NCBI GenBank assembly: GCA_017415165.1 | Contig: JAFQIY010000041.1 | Coordinates: forward strand, 186,001 to 250,000 | Source of the DNA: Oscillospiraceae bacterium | GTDB taxonomy: Bacteria > Bacillota > Clostridia > Oscillospirales > Ruminococcaceae | Direction of reading: 5' to 3' | Length of the DNA: 64,000 nucleotides | Notes under the pieces: generated by a model | The model's database searches: none | Told to the model about the DNA's origin: nothing | Seen by the model: the letters and a program-made list of their open reading frames with translations, nothing else | Shown here: positions 23,289 to 36,348 of the stretch, one piece after another | Layout: every line of letters begins with the position of its first letter | How positions within the stretch are numbered: position 1 is the stretch's first letter | Position numbers and translations under genes: made by a program

Positions 23289-23323
23289 AAGAATGGCATC
23301 AGTTAATTTCCGACGCCATTCTT
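23289..23323 (-). terminator. Terminator overlapping the end of pflA
   Basis: AAGAATGGC and GCCATTCTT pair across the pflA stop codon; a weak T-run follows on the reverse strand. Confidence 0.5.
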
Positions 23324-24067
23324 ATTATCTTTAAGCCGCTGTTTAATGCCGTCCATAATTATATCACGTGCCCTTGCGGCTTCACTTTTATCAAGCGCAG
23401 GCGTATCACCCAAAGGATACTCAATTCCAAGTTGCTCATACTTCGTCTTGCCCATATCGTGATATGGCAGGACATCAAGCGCTTTAAGGGTACGCAGTCC
23501 GCCGATAAAATAGCCAAGCTTACGGAGGTATTCCTCGTCATCGGTTATATTCGGGACAACAACGTGCCGCACCCATAGCTCGACGCCTTTTTCACTGATA
23601 TATTCAGCAAAATCGAGAATTGCGGTATTTTCCTGTCCTGTCAGGTCAAGGTGTTTTTCGTTGTCTATATGCTTTATATCAAGCATTACGATATCGGTAA
23701 CGGCAAGAAGTCTGTCAAATTGTGCAAGGGTTTTATTATCACGGCTGAAGGTTATTCCTGAGGTGTCGAGGCAGGTGTGTACTCCCCTGTATTTTGCTTC
23801 CTCAAAAAGCTCGGTAACAAACTCAATCTGCATAAGCGGTTCACCGCCTGTTACGGTTATTCCGCCGTTGCGCAGGAATTCCTTACAGCTTTCCCAGCCG
23901 TCCATTATTTCGTCCACGGTTACTTCCCTGCCGCTGTCATATGCCCAGGTATCGGGGTTATGACAATATTTACAACGCATAGGGCAGCCCTGCATAAATA
24001 CGACATAGCGTATTCCCGGTCCGTCAACTGTTCCGCAGGATTCTATGGAATGGATATATCCGTTCAT
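23303..24067 (-). CDS. pflA: Pyruvate formate-lyase activating enzyme (radical SAM)
   Basis: The 254-residue protein has the radical-SAM cluster motif CPMRCKYC (C28, C32, C35) and the GGEP motif (VTGGEPLMQ). This enzyme uses S-adenosylmethionine to place the glycyl radical on pyruvate formate-lyase. It is the last gene of the pfl locus, 54 bases after the glycyl-radical subunit. GAGGAAAT precedes ATG 24067. Its substrate glycine here would be on the separate small protein encoded upstream. Confidence 0.94.
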   Translation of the reverse strand: MNGYIHSIESCGTVDGPGIRYVVFMQGCPMRCKYCHNPDTWAYDSGREVTVDEIMDGWESCKEFLRNGGITVTGGEPLMQIEFVTELFEEAKYRGVHTCLDTSGITFSRDNKTLAQFDRLLAVTDIVMLDIKHIDNEKHLDLTGQENTAILDFAEYISEKGVELWVRHVVVPNITDDEEYLRKLGYFIGGLRTLKALDVLPYHDMGKTKYEQLGIEYPLGDTPALDKSEAARARDIIMDGIKQRLKDNKNGVGN

Positions 24068-24089
24068 TTTATTTCCTCACATATACGAT

Positions 24090-24116
24090 AAGGGAACATC
24101 AATCAGATGTTCCCTT
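24090..24116 (-). terminator. Hairpin between the glycyl-radical gene and pflA
   Basis: AAGGGAACATC and GATGTTCCCTT form an 11-bp stem with a five-base loop and no T-run: more likely a processing or stability element than a terminator. Confidence 0.5.
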
Positions 24117-24121
24117 GATTT

Positions 24122-24361
24122 TTACATTGATTTGTGGAATGTTCTGGAGATTACGTCGTCCTGCTGCTCCTTTGTAAGCTTATTGAAGTTTACAGCATAG
24201 CCCGAAACTCTGATTGTAAGCTGAGGATACTTTTCAGGGTGTGCCTGTGCGTCCAGAAGAAGTTCCTTGGTGAATACATTTACGTTGAGATGATGTCCGC
24301 CCTTGCTGACATAACCGTCAAGAAGTTCAATAAGGTTGTCAACCTGCTGATTAGCTGCCAT
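24122..24361 (-). CDS. Glycyl-radical subunit of a split pyruvate formate-lyase (GrcA-like)
   Basis: The 79-residue protein equals the C-terminal domain of normal pyruvate formate-lyase: [10 protein letters not shown] (21-30), [19 protein letters not shown] with radical-bearing G54, and the closing [15 protein letters not shown]. GrcA/YfiD proteins of this kind normally rescue damaged full-length PFL. Here the large PFL gene upstream lacks this domain altogether, so this protein must supply the glycine if the locus makes active enzyme. Start ATG 24361 is preferred because AAAGG lies nine bases upstream; an ATG three codons earlier is too close to it. Confidence 0.9.
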
Positions 24362-24387
24362 AATAACCATCCTTTCTGCATAGTCGG

Positions 24388-24597
24388 TTAAAATTCATCT
24401 TCATATTCTTCGTAATCCATACCTTTATTCAGTGTTGGCTGACAGCAGGCTTTCTGTCCTGTGCCGCAGTCACTGCTTCGGTATGTCTGCACGGTCATTT
24501 CATCTGCGTCATCTGATGCAGTAATGTTAACGTGACCGCCGCCTTCACTCATAAGGCGGTCAAGCATATCCACAAGTTCATTTACTTTGTTATCCAC
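24388..24597 (-). CDS. Small Cys-containing relative of the glycyl-radical subunit N-terminus
   Basis: A 69-residue protein starting with GTG behind AAAGGG. Its first half ([20 protein letters not shown]) lines up with the first half of the next gene ([20 protein letters not shown]), but it then diverges into a Cys-containing stretch ([14 protein letters not shown]) and an acidic tail with no RVSGY motif. It looks like a duplicated linker segment that lost the radical domain. It might help the two PFL parts assemble; that is inference from position only. Confidence 0.7.
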
Positions 24598-24617
24598 AGT
24601 ACCGCCCTTTCGTGATT

Positions 24618-26696
24618 TTAGTTCTTATTTACTTCCTCGCTGAGTCTGTCGAGGTCAAGCTCTCCCATAAACACGGAATTATCCTTACCGAGAGCGTCAG
24701 GCACGATGGAGAATGTATTTGAGATACCGTCCTGAGCGTGCTTGAACGGAAGCTTTGCAACGCTGGCGAGGGAAGCTGTTGCGCCGTGTGTATCACGTCT
24801 GTGCATTGGGTTTGCGCCAGGTGCAAGAGGCTCGCCAATCTTTCTGCCGTCAGGTGTATTACCTGTTTTCTTACCGTACACAACGTTAGAAGTAATGGTA
24901 AGAATTGACATAGTCGGGATACTGTTTCTGTATGTATGGTGACGTCTGATTTTGTCCATAAACTTACGGACGATATTTACTGCAATCTGGTCAACACGGT
25001 CGTCGTTGTTGCCGTACTTAGGGAAATCGCCCTCTACTTCGTAGTCGACAACAATTCCGTTTTCGTCACGGATACACTTTACCTTAGCGTACTTGATTGC
25101 GCTGAGGGAGTCAGCTACAACGGAAAGTCCAGCGATACCTGTTGCAAAGTAACGCTTGACCTCTCTGTCGTGGAGAGCCATCTGGAGCTTTTCGTAGCTG
25201 TACTTATCGTGCATATAGTGGATAACATTAAGTGTATTTACATAGAGGGATGCGAGCCAGTCCATCATATCCTCGTACTTTTCCATAACATCGTCGTAAT
25301 CGAGGTAATCGCCTGTTACAGGGCGGTACTTAGGTCCAACCTGTTCCTTGAGACGCTCGTCCACACCGCCGTTGATAGCGTAAAGGAGACACTTTGCGAG
25401 GTTAGCTCTTGCGCCGAAGAACTGCATTTCCTTGCCCACAACCATTGAAGATACACAGCAGGCAATAGCATAGTCATCGCCGTGGACTGTTCTCATAAGG
25501 TCGTCATTTTCGTACTGTACGGAGGATGACTTGATAGACATTTCTGCACAATAAACCTTGAAGTTTCTCGGAAGCTTTGTAGACCAGAGCACTGTCATAT
25601 TAGGCTCAGGCGCACTGCCGAGGTTTTCAAGTGTATGGAGATAACGGAAGCTGTTCTTGGTAACGAGAGTACGTCCGTCGATACCTACGCCGCCGATTGA
25701 TTCGGTTACCCAAGTCGGGTCGCCTGAGAAAAGCTCATTATATTCAGGCGTACGTGCAAACTTGACCATACGGAGCTTCATAATGAAGTGGTCAACAAGC
25801 TCCTGTGCCTGAGATTCGGAAAGAATTCCCTTTTCGAGGTCACGCTGGATATAGATATCAAGGAATGTGGAGGTACGTCCGAGACTCATTGCTGCGCCGT
25901 TCTGCTCCTTAACAGCTGCGAGGTAGCCGAAATAGAGCCACTGGACAGCTTCCTGAGCGTTTGCGGCAGGCTTGGAGATGTCAAAGCCGTAAATATCACC
26001 GAGTTCCTTGAGTTCCTGGAGAGCCTTAACCTGGTCGGCAAGCTCCTCACGGAGTCTGATATTTTCATATGTCATTCTGACAAGAGATGTATCAATCTGA
26101 TGCTTCTTATCCTGAATAAGTCTGTCCACACCGTAAAGCGCTACACGGCGATAGTCACCGATGATACGTCCTCTGCCGTAAGCGTCGGGGAGACCTGTGA
26201 TAATAGCGGATTTTCTTGCCATTCTCATTTCAGGAGTATACGCATCAAAAACACCCTGATTGTGTGTTTTTCTGTATTTTGTAAAAATCTCCACAACCTC
26301 AGGGTCAACCTCATAGCCGTTTTCGCGGCAGGCATTCTGCGCCATTCTGATGCCGCCGAAGGGCTGGAGAGAACGCTTAAGCGGCTTATCTGTCTGGAGA
26401 CCGACAATTTTTTCGAGGTCCTTATTTATGTAACCTGCGCCGTGAGATGTAATTGTGGAAATAATCTTAGTGTCCATATCAAGAACACCGCCTGCTTCAC
26501 GTTCCTTCTGAAACAGGTCAAGCACCTCTTTCCAGAGCGCCTTTGTTGTTTCGGTAGGTGCGGCAAGGAACGACGAGTCGCCGTCATACGGTGTATAGTT
26601 ATTCTGAATAAAATCTCTTACGTTGATGGAAGTGCTCCAACGTCCGAGCTTAAATCCCGCCCACTGGGAAGGGAGTTCCATAGGCTTCATAAACAT
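24618..26696 (-). CDS. pflB: Pyruvate formate-lyase core lacking the glycyl-radical domain
   Basis: The 692-residue protein is formate C-acetyltransferase through to the end of the barrel: active-site pair C413-C414 (AIACCVSS), [10 protein letters not shown], and late blocks GANPMHRRD and [15 protein letters not shown]. It stops soon after, whereas complete homologues continue about 65-70 residues with the RVSGYAV glycine loop. That part is encoded separately at 24122-24361. The gene starts at ATG 26696 behind AAAGGA. PFL converts pyruvate and CoA to acetyl-CoA and formate and is oxygen-sensitive. Locus order is pflB, small protein, glycyl subunit, pflA. Confidence 0.93.
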
Positions 26697-29986: not shown

Positions 29987-32900
29987 TTATGCTGCGGGAA
30001 ATAAGGAACTCATTTTTTCAATTTCAGCAATTTTTTCTGCATATTCTTCAGAGACAATTGCTTCATTGGCAGAACTTAATTCTTCAATGATAATTCCGAT
30101 TGTAAGTGCGCCCTTTGATGTAAGAACAGGATAATATCCTTCAGGCATAGTATTTCCAATCGTAATCAAGCTTGCATCGCCGCACTTTGCCATAAGAACC
30201 TTGCCTGCGTAGTCTTCTGTCAGGGTAACAGGATTACCATTTTCATCAAGAAGTGTTATTGTAAATGGATCACCATATATTGCACCAAGTTTAATCTTAG
30301 ATGCATTCTTATATGGGTAGATAATTTCTGAATTCTCACCAGAAGTCACCACAAATGTTGCAGTAAGACTCGCCTTATCCTCAAGAACTATCTTATTGTT
30401 AAATCCAATGTATTGCACATTTATGCTTCCTGTTACATTTACATAATCAGCGAAAACAGCAATGCCCTTACCTGTTACCTTACCTACATTAATAGCTGAA
30501 TATACAGCAAAATCGTATGTACCAATATTAACATTAATCGGAAGCTCTGCATTTGTTTTTGCATTAATCTTTTTCAGCTGAACATAAGGCGAAATCACTA
30601 AATTACCTGTAGACTTAATATCACCTGTCAGATTAACTGTAACATTACCAGCCGATTCTAATGAATTGAACTCAATAGTACCGTATTTCTTAGCTGCAGG
30701 AAGTGGAAGTGCACCCTTGATTGTTTCATCATGAGCAAGGCATACTGTATAGTAACCTTCAGGATTGTTGATACGGTTGATTTCTGTCATCATATCCTTG
30801 AGACTTGCATACAAGGACGGCTTTCCTTCTTCGTCATCTTCATTCTCATAAGCCCAGAGTATATACATATCATCAGCTATGCCTGCGATAAGCTTATTGC
30901 CCGAACGTACTACTGAATAATCGGAATAATAATCGTCCTCACCGTAAAGCATTACCATATCTATATCGTAATCGCCTGTGATGTTCATTACGTCGAAGTT
31001 ACCGTCAGGGAATTCATATATAAGTTCGCCATCCATAAGTCTTACGCCGAGAGACTGTCCGCCAATGAATGTGCCGACCTTAATTTTTGATGCGTTCTTA
31101 TACTGATATTCGAGAACAGTTTCATCAGATGAGTAAATTTTTGCTGCTGTAAGGCTTGCCTTTTCTCCAAGAACTATCGTGCCGCCGACATTAAGCTCTG
31201 CAACATTTATTTTGCCGCTTATATCTGCACCGCTCCAGAAAGCTGCACCGCCCTTTGCACCATTTACATTGCCTGCATTGATATAATTATATGTAGTAAA
31301 ATAATATGCTCCTGCATTGATATTTATTGGGAGCAAAGCACCTGTCTTTGCGTTCTTTTTCACTACATTAACACCTGCTGAGAACCAAATGTTACCTGTC
31401 AGCTTGATATCACCTGTCAGGTAAAGTGTAACATCTCCTTCGCTTGGTTTAAAGGTAATGGAGTGATACTTCTTAGCTGTCGGGAGAGGAAGTGCACCTG
31501 TAATTTCTTCATTTTCGGAAAGGTAAATGGTATAGTTTCCATTTGCATTTCCAATTCGTGTGATTTCGCTCATAATATCCTTAAGGTTTGCATACAGGGT
31601 TGTATTTCCTGCATCATCTTCAAGGATATACAGCATATTTGTCTGACCTGCGATAAGCTTATTGCCAGAACGGATTACAGAAAGGTCTTCCTGACCCTGG
31701 AGAACGATATTTCCATAGTAGTTACCTGTAATTGCAGCTACTTCCATACCGTTGTCAAAAACAACATTGCTTTCCTTTCCAGGCTCCTTGAATGCAACTG
31801 TAAGCTTATCCTCGCTTGCAAAGCCTGTCTTGCCGATTGTGAACTTCTTGCCATATGTGAGAGTAAGGCGACTTGTTTCAGAGTCAGGAACAGTTATCTT
31901 ATCTGCTGTGAGGTCTCCTAATACAACTGCATCAGGTCCTACATTGAGATTGCCTGTTACGGTAACCTTATCGTTGATTGTTGATGAGTTGATAAGGAGA
32001 TTTGCAGCACTTACGCTGCCTGCAATATCTGTGTTGTCGAAAAGCACACTGCTTTTTGAAGTGATATTTGTAATTTCACTTCCTGTAACATTATAAAGAT
32101 ACAGCATATATGCGCCTGCATTGATTTTATATGCTACAGGATTATAGGATGTACCTGATTTTTTAAGTGCTGAAAGCGCAACGTTTGTAAACATTGTATC
32201 GCCTGTAAGTGTAATTGAATTACCTACAAAAGTAAGGTCTGTTTCAGTGTCTGCCATAATGCTGAGTGCAGCATATGTGCCCTTCTTAGGCATTGTCATA
32301 GCACCGCCGATATCGTAATCGCCGAGAAGCTTGATTACATACTGTGCATTCTTGTTGTTTGCTGCATTTATTGAGCTTACAACATCAGCCCACGTTGCCA
32401 TTTTATACACATTTTCTCCGTCAGGAGAAAGGTAAAGCTTTACGCTTCTGAGGTAAACATTATTGCCTGTTCTGCTTACTGTGTATTCATAAAGCTCATC
32501 AGGACAGGATGCTTCTGCTATCTTGAAGCAAGCAAGATTTGCTGTCTTGGAAGTAAAGAGATGCTGTCCGTCTGTAAATTTGCTTTCACCTGTGAAGGTA
32601 ATTGTTCCGTTGGCATTACCTGTGACAGAAACAGGAGTAAAGCCTTCCTCGTAATAAATTGCTGATGCAGCAACACCTTCAATATCCTTGATTGTTACCT
32701 TGGAAGCACTTGGAACAACAAGCTTGGAGTTTGCTTCCATAACAAGCTTTGTGAAGCTTGCTGTTGCTGCTGTTGTCATAGATGCATTTTCCTTGATTGT
32801 AACTGTTCCAAAGCCTGAAAGCGGAACACAGAGATTATTGTCTGTACCCCATTCAAGAGCAAATTTCGAACCGCCCTTGAGAGTCTTCATAGATGCTGAT

Positions 32901-35900
32901 GTAAAGCCTGTGAGAGAAAGGTTTTTGCTTGCTGTGAGTGTAAATGGCTTACTGCTTTCGAGGGTAATATTTTCAAAAGCAAGATTTCCCTTTGCGGAAA
33001 TAGCTGTATTATTAACAGTAAGAGTTTTGCCTGAGCCTACAAAGGTAATACCAGCTGCCTTTGCTGCCGCAGGAAGAACAAGGTTATTTACGGTTACATC
33101 GTCAAGGAGCGTAACTGTAAATTCCTTATCTGCGCTGCCTGCCGCATTGATAGCCGCAAGGGCGTCCTCCCAGAGAGTGTAGCTTCCGAGATCCTCAACT
33201 ATGATTGAAGCTGAAGCAAATCTGAGTTCATTGTCAACGCGGATAAGTGAAAGATTATCGCCGCTTTCTGTTTTTGCGGATGTAGTAAAGGTGGTTGCCT
33301 TAACAGATGTGTTTGCAACAACAAGAGCTGTCTGTCCGTTTTCAGCGATATTTTCTCTTTTTTCTTTACCTTCATCATCTACACCAATTACAGTACTTGC
33401 AAAAACAGTAATAGGTGTACCGTCTGTTGTAACCTTGCCTGTTATTTCAATCGGCACTTCATACGAAACCATAGAATTTGAACCTGTTGACTTCAGATTG
33501 CCGATTGTAACATTTCCTTCGCCGACTGAAGCAAAGAAGGCATTATCTGACATTGTAAGGTTTGCAATGTTCAAAGCCTTTATATTCGAGTTTATATATG
33601 TCTCATTTTCAAGCACAAGGTTTTTAACAACAACTGTAGCTTCGTTATTGACAAATGATAAAGACGTATTATCAACAGTAATATTCTGTGCAGAAAGAAC
33701 TTCACCTAAAATAAAGTAATAACTCTCGCTGCCGCAAAGTTTCAGCACAAAAGAGCCTGTTGCGATGTCTCCGTGGAATGCTGCACCGTTAAGGAATGTA
33801 AGATTTGTTTTAAGGGTAATATCACCTGTTATATTAAAGCCTGCACCCTCAAAAATAATTTCCTTAGCCTTAGCTGTATTAAATACGCTTCCGCTCAGTA
33901 CGATTGTATCTTCTTCACCTGTATATGTAACAGTATATTTAGCGGTAGATTTTGCTGCTTCATCTATATAAGCGATTGCTTCCTCCAATGTTACTCTTCT
34001 TACTGTCTTTGTTCCGTCAGTAATGGTATAATCAGCAGTGGCTACAGCGTAATAGTAACGTAAGCCTTCTCCGTTATACACCTTTTGGATACCGCATATA
34101 ACATTAGGCTCAACACCTGTATTTACGATATTGAACATATCAACGGAAAAATCATTGTCCGTATAAACAATAGCATAATCGGAAGCATAATCAATACTTG
34201 AAGCATAAATATTGACTATCGGCGCGTTAATCTTGCCGCCAAAATGTATACCTGCATTTTCACCTGTAGCTCCAAGCACAATCTTAGAAGTTGCCTTTGC
34301 GGTGTAATTTACAAAATCAATACTGCCGCTTACAACATTGAATTCAGAATTTTCTCCAAGTGTAAGGTTTGTACCGTATGTGCTGTATAAAAGCTTTACC
34401 GCAGTATTATCAGGAACAGTAATATTCTTAAAATCAATAACGCTTGCAAGCAAATATTCACTTTCCGATGCTTCAAAAGTCAGCGAGCCTGTTTCCGAGC
34501 CGTTGATAACCACAGGAACATAATTAACCATACCATCTCCGAAGGTCAGGGTATGTTCACCTGTTTCAATTGTGTATACAGGCAAAAGTGCATTCTGCTC
34601 AACGCCCTTAACGCCCTTAATGGTTACGTCGGAATTGAGCACCATATTGGAATTGAAAGTAATTGCAAAGCCTGCACCATTGATTGTAAAATCGTATTCA
34701 GGCATAGTTTTGCCGCTATATTCTGCGTCAGCAAGAAGTGTGATTGTTGCATCATCTGCCTTGACAGCACCGATTGCAGCGTCAAGAGTTGCATACACTC
34801 TTCCGCCGATTCTTGCAATGCCGTCTCCTGATTCCATATAGTTTTCTTCGTGATTATCGTAGGAATAAGTTGTGGAGTTACAGGTGTTTACTGAATAAAG
34901 ATAGTCATCTGAAGAAGGCTGCTCAGGAGTATGGGCATTGACAGTACCGTCGCCATATGGTCCGTATGTAAAATCATACGACGAGCCGTCACTGTCTACA
35001 ACATTGAAATAATGGTAATCGTAATCATTATCATTGTCGTCCCATGTTACGTCAACATTATACCATTCGGTTGTACCGCCATTGTCAAGACCTATCTGAT
35101 TCCACGCGTGTCCGCCGCCGTTACCGATACCTGTAACGTAAAGCACCTGAATATCAAGAGCATTCATAAACATCTGGAAGCACTTTGCATAGGATTCACA
35201 TACAGCCTTACCGTCAACAAGCAGACCTGAAATGTCGTGGGCGTGGGCTGCACCCGAAACATAATCCGTAGCCTCGCAAAGATAGTTGTGAATATACCAT
35301 TCCTGAGTATATTCATTACCATACATTGCTGCTTCACTAAGTACCTGCTCAACCTCAGTCATTATCTGATTTTTTACAGTCATTCTGTAATCGCCATCTA
35401 TATAATCGATAGCTGCATCATCAATACCGAAGGCTATACTTGTAGAACCTGAACCACCAGAAGAATAATAACCGTGTCCCATCCAGAAGAACTGCGGATT
35501 ATCTGCTCTGATTGCGACAAAAACTTTAAAAAGGTCAGCGCCGACATCATAATCTGCAACCTCTATTGGTTCAAAATAATAATTATCATAGCTCGAATGA
35601 AGCACTGCATCATATTCAGCCGAAGTATCAATTTTCACCGCTGCTTCATAACAAGAATTGTACACCTTTTTAAGGCTTGTTGAAAGCGCATTATATCCAT
35701 CAAGGCTACTGTACTCACTCTGAGCAGAGTAATAGCTTGGTGCTGTAACACAGGAAATGCTGTCATCGGAAACTTCGTCATCACCGTAATCTTCGTGATA
35801 GTATTCATACTGCATCAGCCCTTCACCTATATATGGAGAGATATAGTGATATATCTCAGGCTCAGCAGCTTCCTCTGCTTCTTCCTCGGATACTTCCTCA

Positions 35901-36265
35901 GCTACCTCAGAAGTATCATCTGTAGTTTCCTCCTCCGAAGTATCTGTTTCATCGGCAGGAATTTCCGTAACGGGAACTGTTGTTTCCTCAGGAACAGCAG
36001 TTTCTGTTGTTTCATCGTCCGAAACATCTGTCGGAACAGTGGTTTCAGCAGGGACTTCTGTTTCGGAAGGTGTTTCCGTGACAGATGTATCTGTTGTTTC
36101 AGATGGCTGAATTTCACTGTCATCGGAATTTTCAGCAACGTCTGTAACTGAAGTTTCCTCGACAGCCATAACTGCTACTTCCGCAATATTGATTCCCGCG
36201 GGAGAAGCAATCATTGAAACCGCCGCCAGCCACGCGGCAATTCTTGCCAACAATTTCTTTTTCAT
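29987..36265 (-). CDS. Giant secreted transglutaminase-like repeat protein
   Basis: The 2,092-residue protein has a signal peptide (1-34, MKKKLLARIAAWLAAVSMIA), a Thr/Glu/Pro-rich linker (about 40-135) and a transglutaminase-like domain at about 300-440 with the expected Cys-His-Asp set (GKAVCESYAKCF, GGGHAWNQI, YNVDVTWDD). The rest is at least six modules, each opening with a helix such as LKDIMSEITRI, a strand TVYLxxDxxI, and LPxxKKYxxITF, then many short strands (beta-solenoid-like). There is no LPXTG anchor, dockerin or terminal TM segment. It may crosslink, cleave or organise the cell surface. AAGGAGG fixes ATG 36265. Confidence 0.85.
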   Translation of the reverse strand: MKKKLLARIAAWLAAVSMIASPAGINIAEVAVMAVEETSVTDVAENSDDSEIQPSETTDTSVTETPSETEVPAETTVPTDVSDDETTETAVPEETTVPVTEIPADETDTSEEETTDDTSEVAEEVSEEEAEEAAEPEIYHYISPYIGEGLMQYEYYHEDYGDDEVSDDSISCVTAPSYYSAQSEYSSLDGYNALSTSLKKVYNSCYEAAVKIDTSAEYDAVLHSSYDNYYFEPIEVADYDVGADLFKVFVAIRADNPQFFWMGHGYYSSGGSGSTSIAFGIDDAAIDYIDGDYRMTVKNQIMTEVEQVLSEAAMYGNEYTQEWYIHNYLCEATDYVSGAAHAHDISGLLVDGKAVCESYAKCFQMFMNALDIQVLYVTGIGNGGGHAWNQIGLDNGGTTEWYNVDVTWDDNDNDYDYHYFNVVDSDGSSYDFTYGPYGDGTVNAHTPEQPSSDDYLYSVNTCNSTTYSYDNHEENYMESGDGIARIGGRVYATLDAAIGAVKADDATITLLADAEYSGKTMPEYDFTINGAGFAITFNSNMVLNSDVTIKGVKGVEQNALLPVYTIETGEHTLTFGDGMVNYVPVVINGSETGSLTFEASESEYLLASVIDFKNITVPDNTAVKLLYSTYGTNLTLGENSEFNVVSGSIDFVNYTAKATSKIVLGATGENAGIHFGGKINAPIVNIYASSIDYASDYAIVYTDNDFSVDMFNIVNTGVEPNVICGIQKVYNGEGLRYYYAVATADYTITDGTKTVRRVTLEEAIAYIDEAAKSTAKYTVTYTGEEDTIVLSGSVFNTAKAKEIIFEGAGFNITGDITLKTNLTFLNGAAFHGDIATGSFVLKLCGSESYYFILGEVLSAQNITVDNTSLSFVNNEATVVVKNLVLENETYINSNIKALNIANLTMSDNAFFASVGEGNVTIGNLKSTGSNSMVSYEVPIEITGKVTTDGTPITVFASTVIGVDDEGKEKRENIAENGQTALVVANTSVKATTFTTSAKTESGDNLSLIRVDNELRFASASIIVEDLGSYTLWEDALAAINAAGSADKEFTVTLLDDVTVNNLVLPAAAKAAGITFVGSGKTLTVNNTAISAKGNLAFENITLESSKPFTLTASKNLSLTGFTSASMKTLKGGSKFALEWGTDNNLCVPLSGFGTVTIKENASMTTAATASFTKLVMEANSKLVVPSASKVTIKDIEGVAASAIYYEEGFTPVSVTGNANGTITFTGESKFTDGQHLFTSKTANLACFKIAEASCPDELYEYTVSRTGNNVYLRSVKLYLSPDGENVYKMATWADVVSSINAANNKNAQYVIKLLGDYDIGGAMTMPKKGTYAALSIMADTETDLTFVGNSITLTGDTMFTNVALSALKKSGTSYNPVAYKINAGAYMLYLYNVTGSEITNITSKSSVLFDNTDIAGSVSAANLLINSSTINDKVTVTGNLNVGPDAVVLGDLTADKITVPDSETSRLTLTYGKKFTIGKTGFASEDKLTVAFKEPGKESNVVFDNGMEVAAITGNYYGNIVLQGQEDLSVIRSGNKLIAGQTNMLYILEDDAGNTTLYANLKDIMSEITRIGNANGNYTIYLSENEEITGALPLPTAKKYHSITFKPSEGDVTLYLTGDIKLTGNIWFSAGVNVVKKNAKTGALLPININAGAYYFTTYNYINAGNVNGAKGGAAFWSGADISGKINVAELNVGGTIVLGEKASLTAAKIYSSDETVLEYQYKNASKIKVGTFIGGQSLGVRLMDGELIYEFPDGNFDVMNITGDYDIDMVMLYGEDDYYSDYSVVRSGNKLIAGIADDMYILWAYENEDDEEGKPSLYASLKDMMTEINRINNPEGYYTVCLAHDETIKGALPLPAAKKYGTIEFNSLESAGNVTVNLTGDIKSTGNLVISPYVQLKKINAKTNAELPINVNIGTYDFAVYSAINVGKVTGKGIAVFADYVNVTGSINVQYIGFNNKIVLEDKASLTATFVVTSGENSEIIYPYKNASKIKLGAIYGDPFTITLLDENGNPVTLTEDYAGKVLMAKCGDASLITIGNTMPEGYYPVLTSKGALTIGIIIEELSSANEAIVSEEYAEKIAEIEKMSSLFPAA

Positions 36266-36348
36266 AGCCAATCCTCCTTGATTAATCAGTGATGAATTAT
36301 CATCGCCTTGCAAAAGTGCGCAAAACGCACAATTTACATTATAAGTTT

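Follow-up and report, generated by a model that had tools for sequence, protein, structure and literature searches.

The locus studied here raises the question of whether a pyruvate formate-lyase (PFL) whose glycyl-radical loop lies on a gene of its own is an obligate two-chain enzyme, or whether the small protein is a spare for a full-length enzyme encoded elsewhere. Many anaerobes rely on PFL for making acetyl-CoA and formate. An initial annotation of the window, that is, of the whole stretch of 64,000 nucleotides from an Oscillospiraceae bacterium, had described a PFL ending just before the loop, with the loop on a separate 79-residue gene upstream of the activase gene, and had considered the small protein obligatory.

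Gene layout of the split locus

On the minus strand, the genes follow the order PFL core, 69-residue open reading frame (ORF), GrcA3, and activase. The features of the locus are as follows:

24618..26696, minus strand: PFL core subunit, 692 aa, with the catalytic cysteine pair and no glycyl-radical loop (TIGR01255)
24388..24597, minus strand: third component (middle protein), 69 aa, GTG start, with a glycyl-domain-like N terminus and a cysteine tail
24122..24370, minus strand: glycyl-radical subunit of the GrcA3 type, 82 aa, with the loop RVSGYAV (NF038360)
24089..24117, minus strand: hairpin with a 12-pair stem, between the radical-subunit and activase genes
23303..24067, minus strand: PFL-activating radical SAM enzyme (activase), 254 aa (TIGR02493, 295.7 bits)

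The core matched TIGR01255 with 1147.1 bits (equivalog cut-off, 994.2) over model positions 1 to 666 of 744, and positions 664 to 744 were matched by the small GrcA3 ORF; the C-terminal glycyl-radical domain expected on the same chain is absent from the core and is encoded by the separate ORF instead. That ORF scored 164.9 bits against the GrcA3 family NF038360 (curated cut-off, 158), and an alternative ATG at position 24361 would give a protein of 79 rather than 82 residues. When both chains were aligned to E. coli PFL, the core covered residues 7 to 681 and GrcA3 residues 683 to 759, with no overlap, indicating that the cut takes away the whole glycyl domain and not the loop alone; the removed part includes the strand HLNVNV (about residues 704 to 709 in E. 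coli). The split between core and radical subunit described in the initial annotation is therefore real, although the core stops before the entire domain (at about residue 681) and not just before the loop. The loop RVSGYAV does lie on a separate gene upstream of the activase gene (24122 to 24370; 82 aa, or 79 aa with the ATG start), and the window GrcA3 would receive its glycyl radical from the activase. The catalytic cysteines C413 and C414 of the window core correspond to C418 and C419 of E. coli PFL, an adjacent pair that is invariant across 40 aligned cores; this numbering of E. coli PFL, and the action of GrcA on C419, follow PMC12338860.

The third gene, at 24388 to 24597 between the core and GrcA3, was absent from the initial annotation, as was the mutual exclusivity of this component and cysteine tails on the core, described below. 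Regarding the hairpin at 24089 to 24117, the RNA of the coding strand has a predicted energy of -19.5 kcal/mol (z score, -4.3), and 0 of 200 shuffled sequences were as stable. A scan lists it as terminator-like on the plus strand, where a T-run follows the hairpin; none follows it on the coding strand. Possibly, it could limit read-through into the activase gene. Elsewhere in the window, 29987 to 36313 on the minus strand encodes a protein of 2108 aa; its core is transglutaminase-like, and the long rest of the chain gave no other Pfam matches above cut-offs.

Distribution of the split and of full-length PFL

The window genome (2.62 Mb) is 93% complete. A search with the glycyl-radical domain model PF01228 gave two matches, one being GrcA3 and the other the end of the core (model positions 2 to 50, before the loop), and no full-length PFL was found in this 93% complete genome, of which about 7% may be unassembled by the completeness estimate. 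Among 119 sampled genomes of the family Ruminococcaceae, 18 carry a standalone GrcA3 above the cut-off, and the core lies upstream of GrcA3 at all 18 loci. None of these 18 genomes has a full-length PFL; a second, weak match (63 to 67 bits; frames of 828 to 860 aa) was seen in three of them and presumably corresponds to other glycyl radical enzymes. Of the 101 non-split genomes in the family sample, 53 have a match in a long frame (at least 100 bits; 439 to 930 aa) and 48 have neither form. Within the window's genus, a standalone GrcA3 occurs in 5 of 21 genomes and other matches at 1e-25 in 0 of 21, suggesting that the trait is patchy. In a phylum-wide sample, a standalone GrcA3 was found at 1e-43 in 2 of 398 genomes, one being the window's.

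A scan of named genomes with one standalone GrcA3 as the query provided a further set of loci (L051 to L130). Since these are the best 80 of the 584 relatives found for that query, they give no prevalence. In these best 80 of 584, GrcA3 is standalone at 79 loci (frames of 79 to 152 aa) and at one (L128) it lies within a PFL of 747 aa. Carriers of the split in this set (best 80 of 584) include Ruminococcus albus KH2T6, R. bicirculans 80/3, Claveliimonas bilis, Kineothrix alysoides, Veillonella sp. R32, Lancefieldella rimae, and metagenome-assembled genomes (MAGs) of Gastranaerophilales. The activase gene lies close behind GrcA3 in many, not all, of the family loci and the named loci (best 80 of 584). 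An error of assembly or sequencing that split a single gene, which the initial annotation had listed as a possible refutation, was ruled out by these loci: the same split recurs in 17 other genomes of the family, which makes a frameshift or a misassembly untenable, and separate ORFs at 18 of 18 family loci and 79 of 80 named ones (best 80 of 584), R. albus KH2T6, R. bicirculans 80/3, and C. bilis among them, leave such an error next to no probability.

The same genomes bear on the possibility that the small GrcA serves only for repair, like its E. coli counterpart, with a full-length PFL as the main enzyme. The name of the protein family, autonomous glycyl radical cofactor, would fit such a role, and a full-length PFL together with GrcA3 occurs in 3 of 79 named split genomes (G540, G547, and G558; from the best 80 of 584). 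Nevertheless, no full-length PFL was found in the window genome, in any of the 18 split family genomes, or in 76 of the 79 named ones (best 80 of 584). Furthermore, the N-terminal extension of GrcA/YfiD (about 60 residues) is absent from the window protein, which starts at the domain. For the window genome, a repair role is contradicted unless a full-length gene lies in the unassembled 7% or so, and we regard it as highly improbable in general. That the small protein is obligatory is thus well supported, both by the search for a full-length pflB in the genome itself and by the survey of its relatives.

Many of the genomes are MAGs, in which a missing gene may be an assembly gap. This is perhaps the explanation for genome G576 (locus L112), in which two copies of GrcA3 were found and no PFL match at 1e-100. 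GrcA3 without a core in the fetched locus was seen at L087, L111, L112, L113, L120, L126, and L127 (Gastranaerophilales MAGs and Kineothrix); in the genomes of L087, L111 to L113, L120, and L127, this GrcA3 is one of two copies. At L087, L112, L113, and L120, a nearby ORF on the opposite strand has a C terminus that by eye resembles a Crp/Fnr regulator. Other loci show their own particularities: the split PFL of R. bicirculans (L066) lies on a record named chromosome II, at L039 an ORF of 311 aa separates grcA3 from the activase gene, and the core of L065 is interrupted by a frame change within the contig.

To place the cores, a tree of 97 sequences (430 columns; quick search, midpoint root, SH-aLRT support) was built without five short cores (<300 aa) of the 89 linked to a GrcA3. 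Twelve full-length PFLs of the family separate, with support of 100, from 84 split cores plus the full-length L128. The latter lies inside the split clade (support, 94) on a long branch and has no cysteine tail, a placement that suggests that this full-length enzyme arose by re-fusion.

Radical subunits of the GrcA3 type were also observed on viral contigs (L140 and L142 to L152; 19 to 333 kb) as standalone proteins of about 76 to 95 aa. Overall, 17 of 18 viral loci are standalone, L153 being a full-length PFL; L151 is truncated where its contig ends, L154 and L155 are longer and YfiD-like, and several contigs share sample numbers. At L148, GrcA3 begins 2 bases after an anaerobic ribonucleotide reductase gene, and at L146 it lies near matches to the tail-fibre attachment/RNA ligase and polynucleotide kinase families. 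The presence of such a subunit on large viral contigs hints that supplying one can pay off in the host.

A cysteine element in two architectures

The middle protein has no glycine loop and ends in a C-terminal cysteine tail (15 residues). In an alignment of 28 members, D13, H22, C44, C51, and P54 (window numbering) are invariant. In a set of 12 members from the family, C44, C51, and P54 are invariant and H22 nearly so, with variation at D13 and H22; a further middle protein of the family (L034) is without the proline. A profile of the protein also matched the N termini of GrcA3 proteins at profile positions of about 7 to 39, mostly at 1e-5 to 1e-8 (extremes, 5e-4 and 2e-8), suggesting that its first half resembles the opening helix and strand of the glycyl domain. 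The likeness covers the first third of that domain, and the middle protein departs from it after the strand. No family for it was found in Pfam or NCBIfam: the window protein had no Pfam match, PF01228 was matched by 1 of 28 members (at 0.0033), and the best NCBIfam match was GrcA3, in 16 of 28 members (best, 5.3e-6). A PDB search with the profile gave chance-like matches, of which the best, at 5e-4, was to a designed protein and had no segment that passed by itself, and no match was found in a plasmid search with the R. bicirculans protein.

The middle protein was found in 14 of the 18 split family genomes and in 0 of the 101 others (at 1e-8), and the remaining four split genomes are exactly those whose core carries a fused cysteine tail. 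The protein was called at a profile score of >40; a divergent one with cysteines, in a Subdoligranulum record, scores 30 to 33, so that others may be missed. In one family genome (G111, locus L046), the middle protein lies away from the split locus, on a different contig and next to a gene judged by eye to be deaminase-like, and this intact copy argues for action in trans.

The likeness to the first third of the glycyl domain might also be expected if the middle ORF were a functionless, decaying remnant of the original domain. Indeed, it has diverged more than its neighbours: relative to its congener at L040, it is 59% identical, with 0.19 nonsynonymous differences per site, versus 0.053 for the core and 0.043 for GrcA3. 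However, the synonymous change is 0.81 and saturated, against which the nonsynonymous change is low, and decay would hardly account for residues invariant across 28 members, for a distribution that follows the split genomes, for an intact copy away from the locus, or for a core tail, frequently bearing the same motif, that takes the place of the protein elsewhere. A remnant is therefore very unlikely, and the middle ORF was rejected as either remnant or chance on its conservation, its linkage to split genomes, its divergence pattern, and the shared motif.

We then compared 98 loci, namely, the 80 named ones (best 80 of 584), 17 from the family, and the window. In this set (including the best 80 of 584 named), one locus is full length, 8 have no linked core and were left unclassed, and 89 have a linked core. 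Two architectures were distinguished. In form A, the core's own C-terminal tail bears at least two cysteines; in form B, the cysteines lie on the separate small protein. With the best 80 of 584 named loci included, 39 of the 89 linked cores have form A, 47 have form B, none has both, and 3 fit neither. The three exceptions are L096 (Veillonella), with a single tail cysteine, and L046 and L107, with neither form in the locus. Put in terms of the core tail, any cysteine occurs in 0 of 47 form B cores, and two or more occur in 39 of the 42 others (including the best 80 of 584 named). Fisher tests on these counts, which include the best 80 of 584 named loci and ignore kinship, gave 4e-22 and 5e-15. 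Few independent events underlie the exclusivity: on well-supported branches, there are only three independent pairs, of which two to three, according to how they are paired, go in opposite directions and none in the same (median p, 0.25); the number of independent pairs rises to 11 when unsupported branches are counted. By parsimony, the two forms interchange in 10 changes on the core tree, of which the starred branches force two to three.

As for the sequence of the element, the motif C..P[TN] is present in 45 of 47 small proteins and in 26 of 40 cysteine-bearing core tails, and in 0 of 47 core tails of form B and 0 of 13 full-length C termini (both comparisons include the best 80 of 584 named). 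A looser motif, C.{1,3}P[TN], is absent from 11 of the 40 cysteine-bearing core tails (including the best 80 of 584 named), and the spacing of the core-tail cysteines varies (CC, CxC, CxxC, Cx4C, and others). The profile of the middle protein finds no helix-and-strand part in the core-fused tails, so the cysteine tail is the part common to both forms. On two Gastranaerophilales loci (L101 and L102), GrcA3 itself ends in SCGC, which places a cysteine pair on the radical subunit.

The core of L107 ends directly after the last conserved motif and has neither form, and its genome (1.3 Mb) gave no match to the middle protein beyond the N terminus of GrcA3. Likewise, a Collinsella aerofaciens record (899,693 bases) with pflB and grcA3 shows no core-tail cysteine and no middle protein. 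Together with the single cysteine of L096 and the tailless core of PDB entry 38la, these cases suggest that the element may be dispensable; it is common but perhaps not universal.

Proposed working of the enzyme and known systems

Sequence data establish that the PFL is split, that this split is conserved, and that a full-length PFL alongside it is nearly always absent. We consider it likely that the locus encodes an obligate two-chain PFL, with a cysteine element at the usual docking place of the glycyl domain; the element would guard the site while its thiols would keep the active-site cysteine pair reduced. The core would hold the substrate, CoA, and the catalytic cysteine pair and could not work alone, because the glycyl-radical domain is a separate, exchangeable protein. 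The activase would charge GrcA3, which would dock on the core in trans; docking, activation, and catalysis in trans are expected by analogy with E. coli YfiD acting on cleaved PFL. The cysteine element would occupy or guard the vacated site where the missing domain would begin, placed there by its covalent link to the core in form A and, in form B, by a helix and strand borrowed for docking, and would hand the site over to GrcA3. Its two thiols, a putative redox-active pair near C418/C419, may keep the latter pair reduced, as we infer from its position, the mutual exclusivity of the two forms, and the conservation of its cysteines. The role of the element might be that of a guard or placeholder, a dithiol, or a docking aid.

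Experiments on the E. coli enzyme bear on the last of these. According to PMC8683613, E. coli PFL truncated after residue 695 has wild-type activity once activated, yet this core (1 to 695, lacking 696 to 759) shows no detectable YfiD binding by isothermal titration calorimetry, and its glycyl radical content is 32-fold below that of cleaved PFL, in which residues 696 to 733 are retained. The same paper indicates that PFL residues 696 to 733 and YfiD residues 1 to 60 matter for binding. Given these results, a natural core that ends near 681, even earlier than the 1 to 695 core, probably needs a replacement for residues 696 to 733; as GrcA3 also lacks the YfiD extension, another part would be expected to take over that function or position, and the cysteine element lies at this very point. 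From the same YfiD biochemistry (PMC8683613), the proposal in the initial annotation that a replaceable radical subunit renews only the oxygen-damaged part is plausible.

The cysteine element might then serve mainly in docking or recognition of the radical subunit or activase, replacing PFL 696 to 733 and YfiD 1 to 60, with cysteines that are structural or metal binding. The importance of both E. coli segments for binding (PMC8683613) agrees with this, as do a GrcA3 too short for the N-terminal half of YfiD, a natural core without 696 to 733, and the resemblance of the middle protein to the start of that region. However, what the two architectures share is the cysteine tail and not the helix and strand, and the varying cysteine spacing is unlike a fixed metal site; we give docking as the main role a substantial chance, though one short of even. 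More tentatively, and as a somewhat doubtful extension, a two-cysteine tail, whether on the core or on the glycyl-domain mimic, might be a dithiol placeholder dedicated to naturally split PFLs, enter the barrel in the absence of the radical subunit, keep the cysteine pair reduced or quench leftover radical, and be displaced by the charged subunit. If so, the enzyme would exchange its radical part and come with a parking brake of its own, comparable in function to the swinging dithiol arm of ribonucleotide reductase. Returning to the two-chain enzyme with a guarding cysteine element, the latter is previously undescribed, and because it is small, conserved, and interchangeable in cis and trans, its role is testable with purified proteins. 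If the radical domain is exchangeable, models of oxygen sensitivity, repair, and formate cross-feeding based on E. coli would not be directly applicable to the groups concerned, which would be Ruminococcus, many Clostridia, and some Actinomycetota.

The split has not gone entirely unnoticed, given that NCBI names GrcA3 and that PDB entries 38la and 38lb match split cores. By score, the window radical subunit is a member of NF038360, whose name implies a repair cofactor, whereas the window protein appears to be the sole PFL radical subunit; RefSeq also annotates grcA3 beside pflB in Collinsella. Both PDB entries (formate acetyltransferase) are the best PDB matches of the window core by sequence, and neither is among the 33 PDB sequences matched by GrcA3 at 1e-5. 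38lb has a C-terminal cysteine tail that aligns with that of Lancefieldella rimae, and 38la aligns as a tailless core to within two residues of its end and may be a truncated construct. As both align as split cores, some group has probably made split cores already; no paper on split PFL was found among open-licence PMC papers.

The closest known systems are E. coli PflB with YfiD/GrcA and phage T4 Y06I, which belong to the same enzyme family and use the same type of activase. Like GrcA3, YfiD/GrcA and Y06I are small glycyl-loop proteins that complement a core without the loop. However, the core that they complement is a full-length enzyme that has suffered oxygen damage, with the small protein as an optional partner, whereas the window core is born without the domain; moreover, the window GrcA3 lacks the N-terminal half of YfiD, and a separate cysteine element is present. 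In 4-hydroxyphenylacetate (HPA) decarboxylase and benzylsuccinate synthase, small cysteine-bearing subunits with more cysteines bind iron-sulphur clusters and accompany full-length enzymes; like the cysteine element, they are small cysteine-bearing partners of glycyl radical enzymes. In class I ribonucleotide reductase, a related barrel enzyme, a C-terminal cysteine pair re-reduces the active-site cysteines, and this dithiol arm offers an analogy, rather than a demonstrated homology, for the possible function of the cysteine tail.
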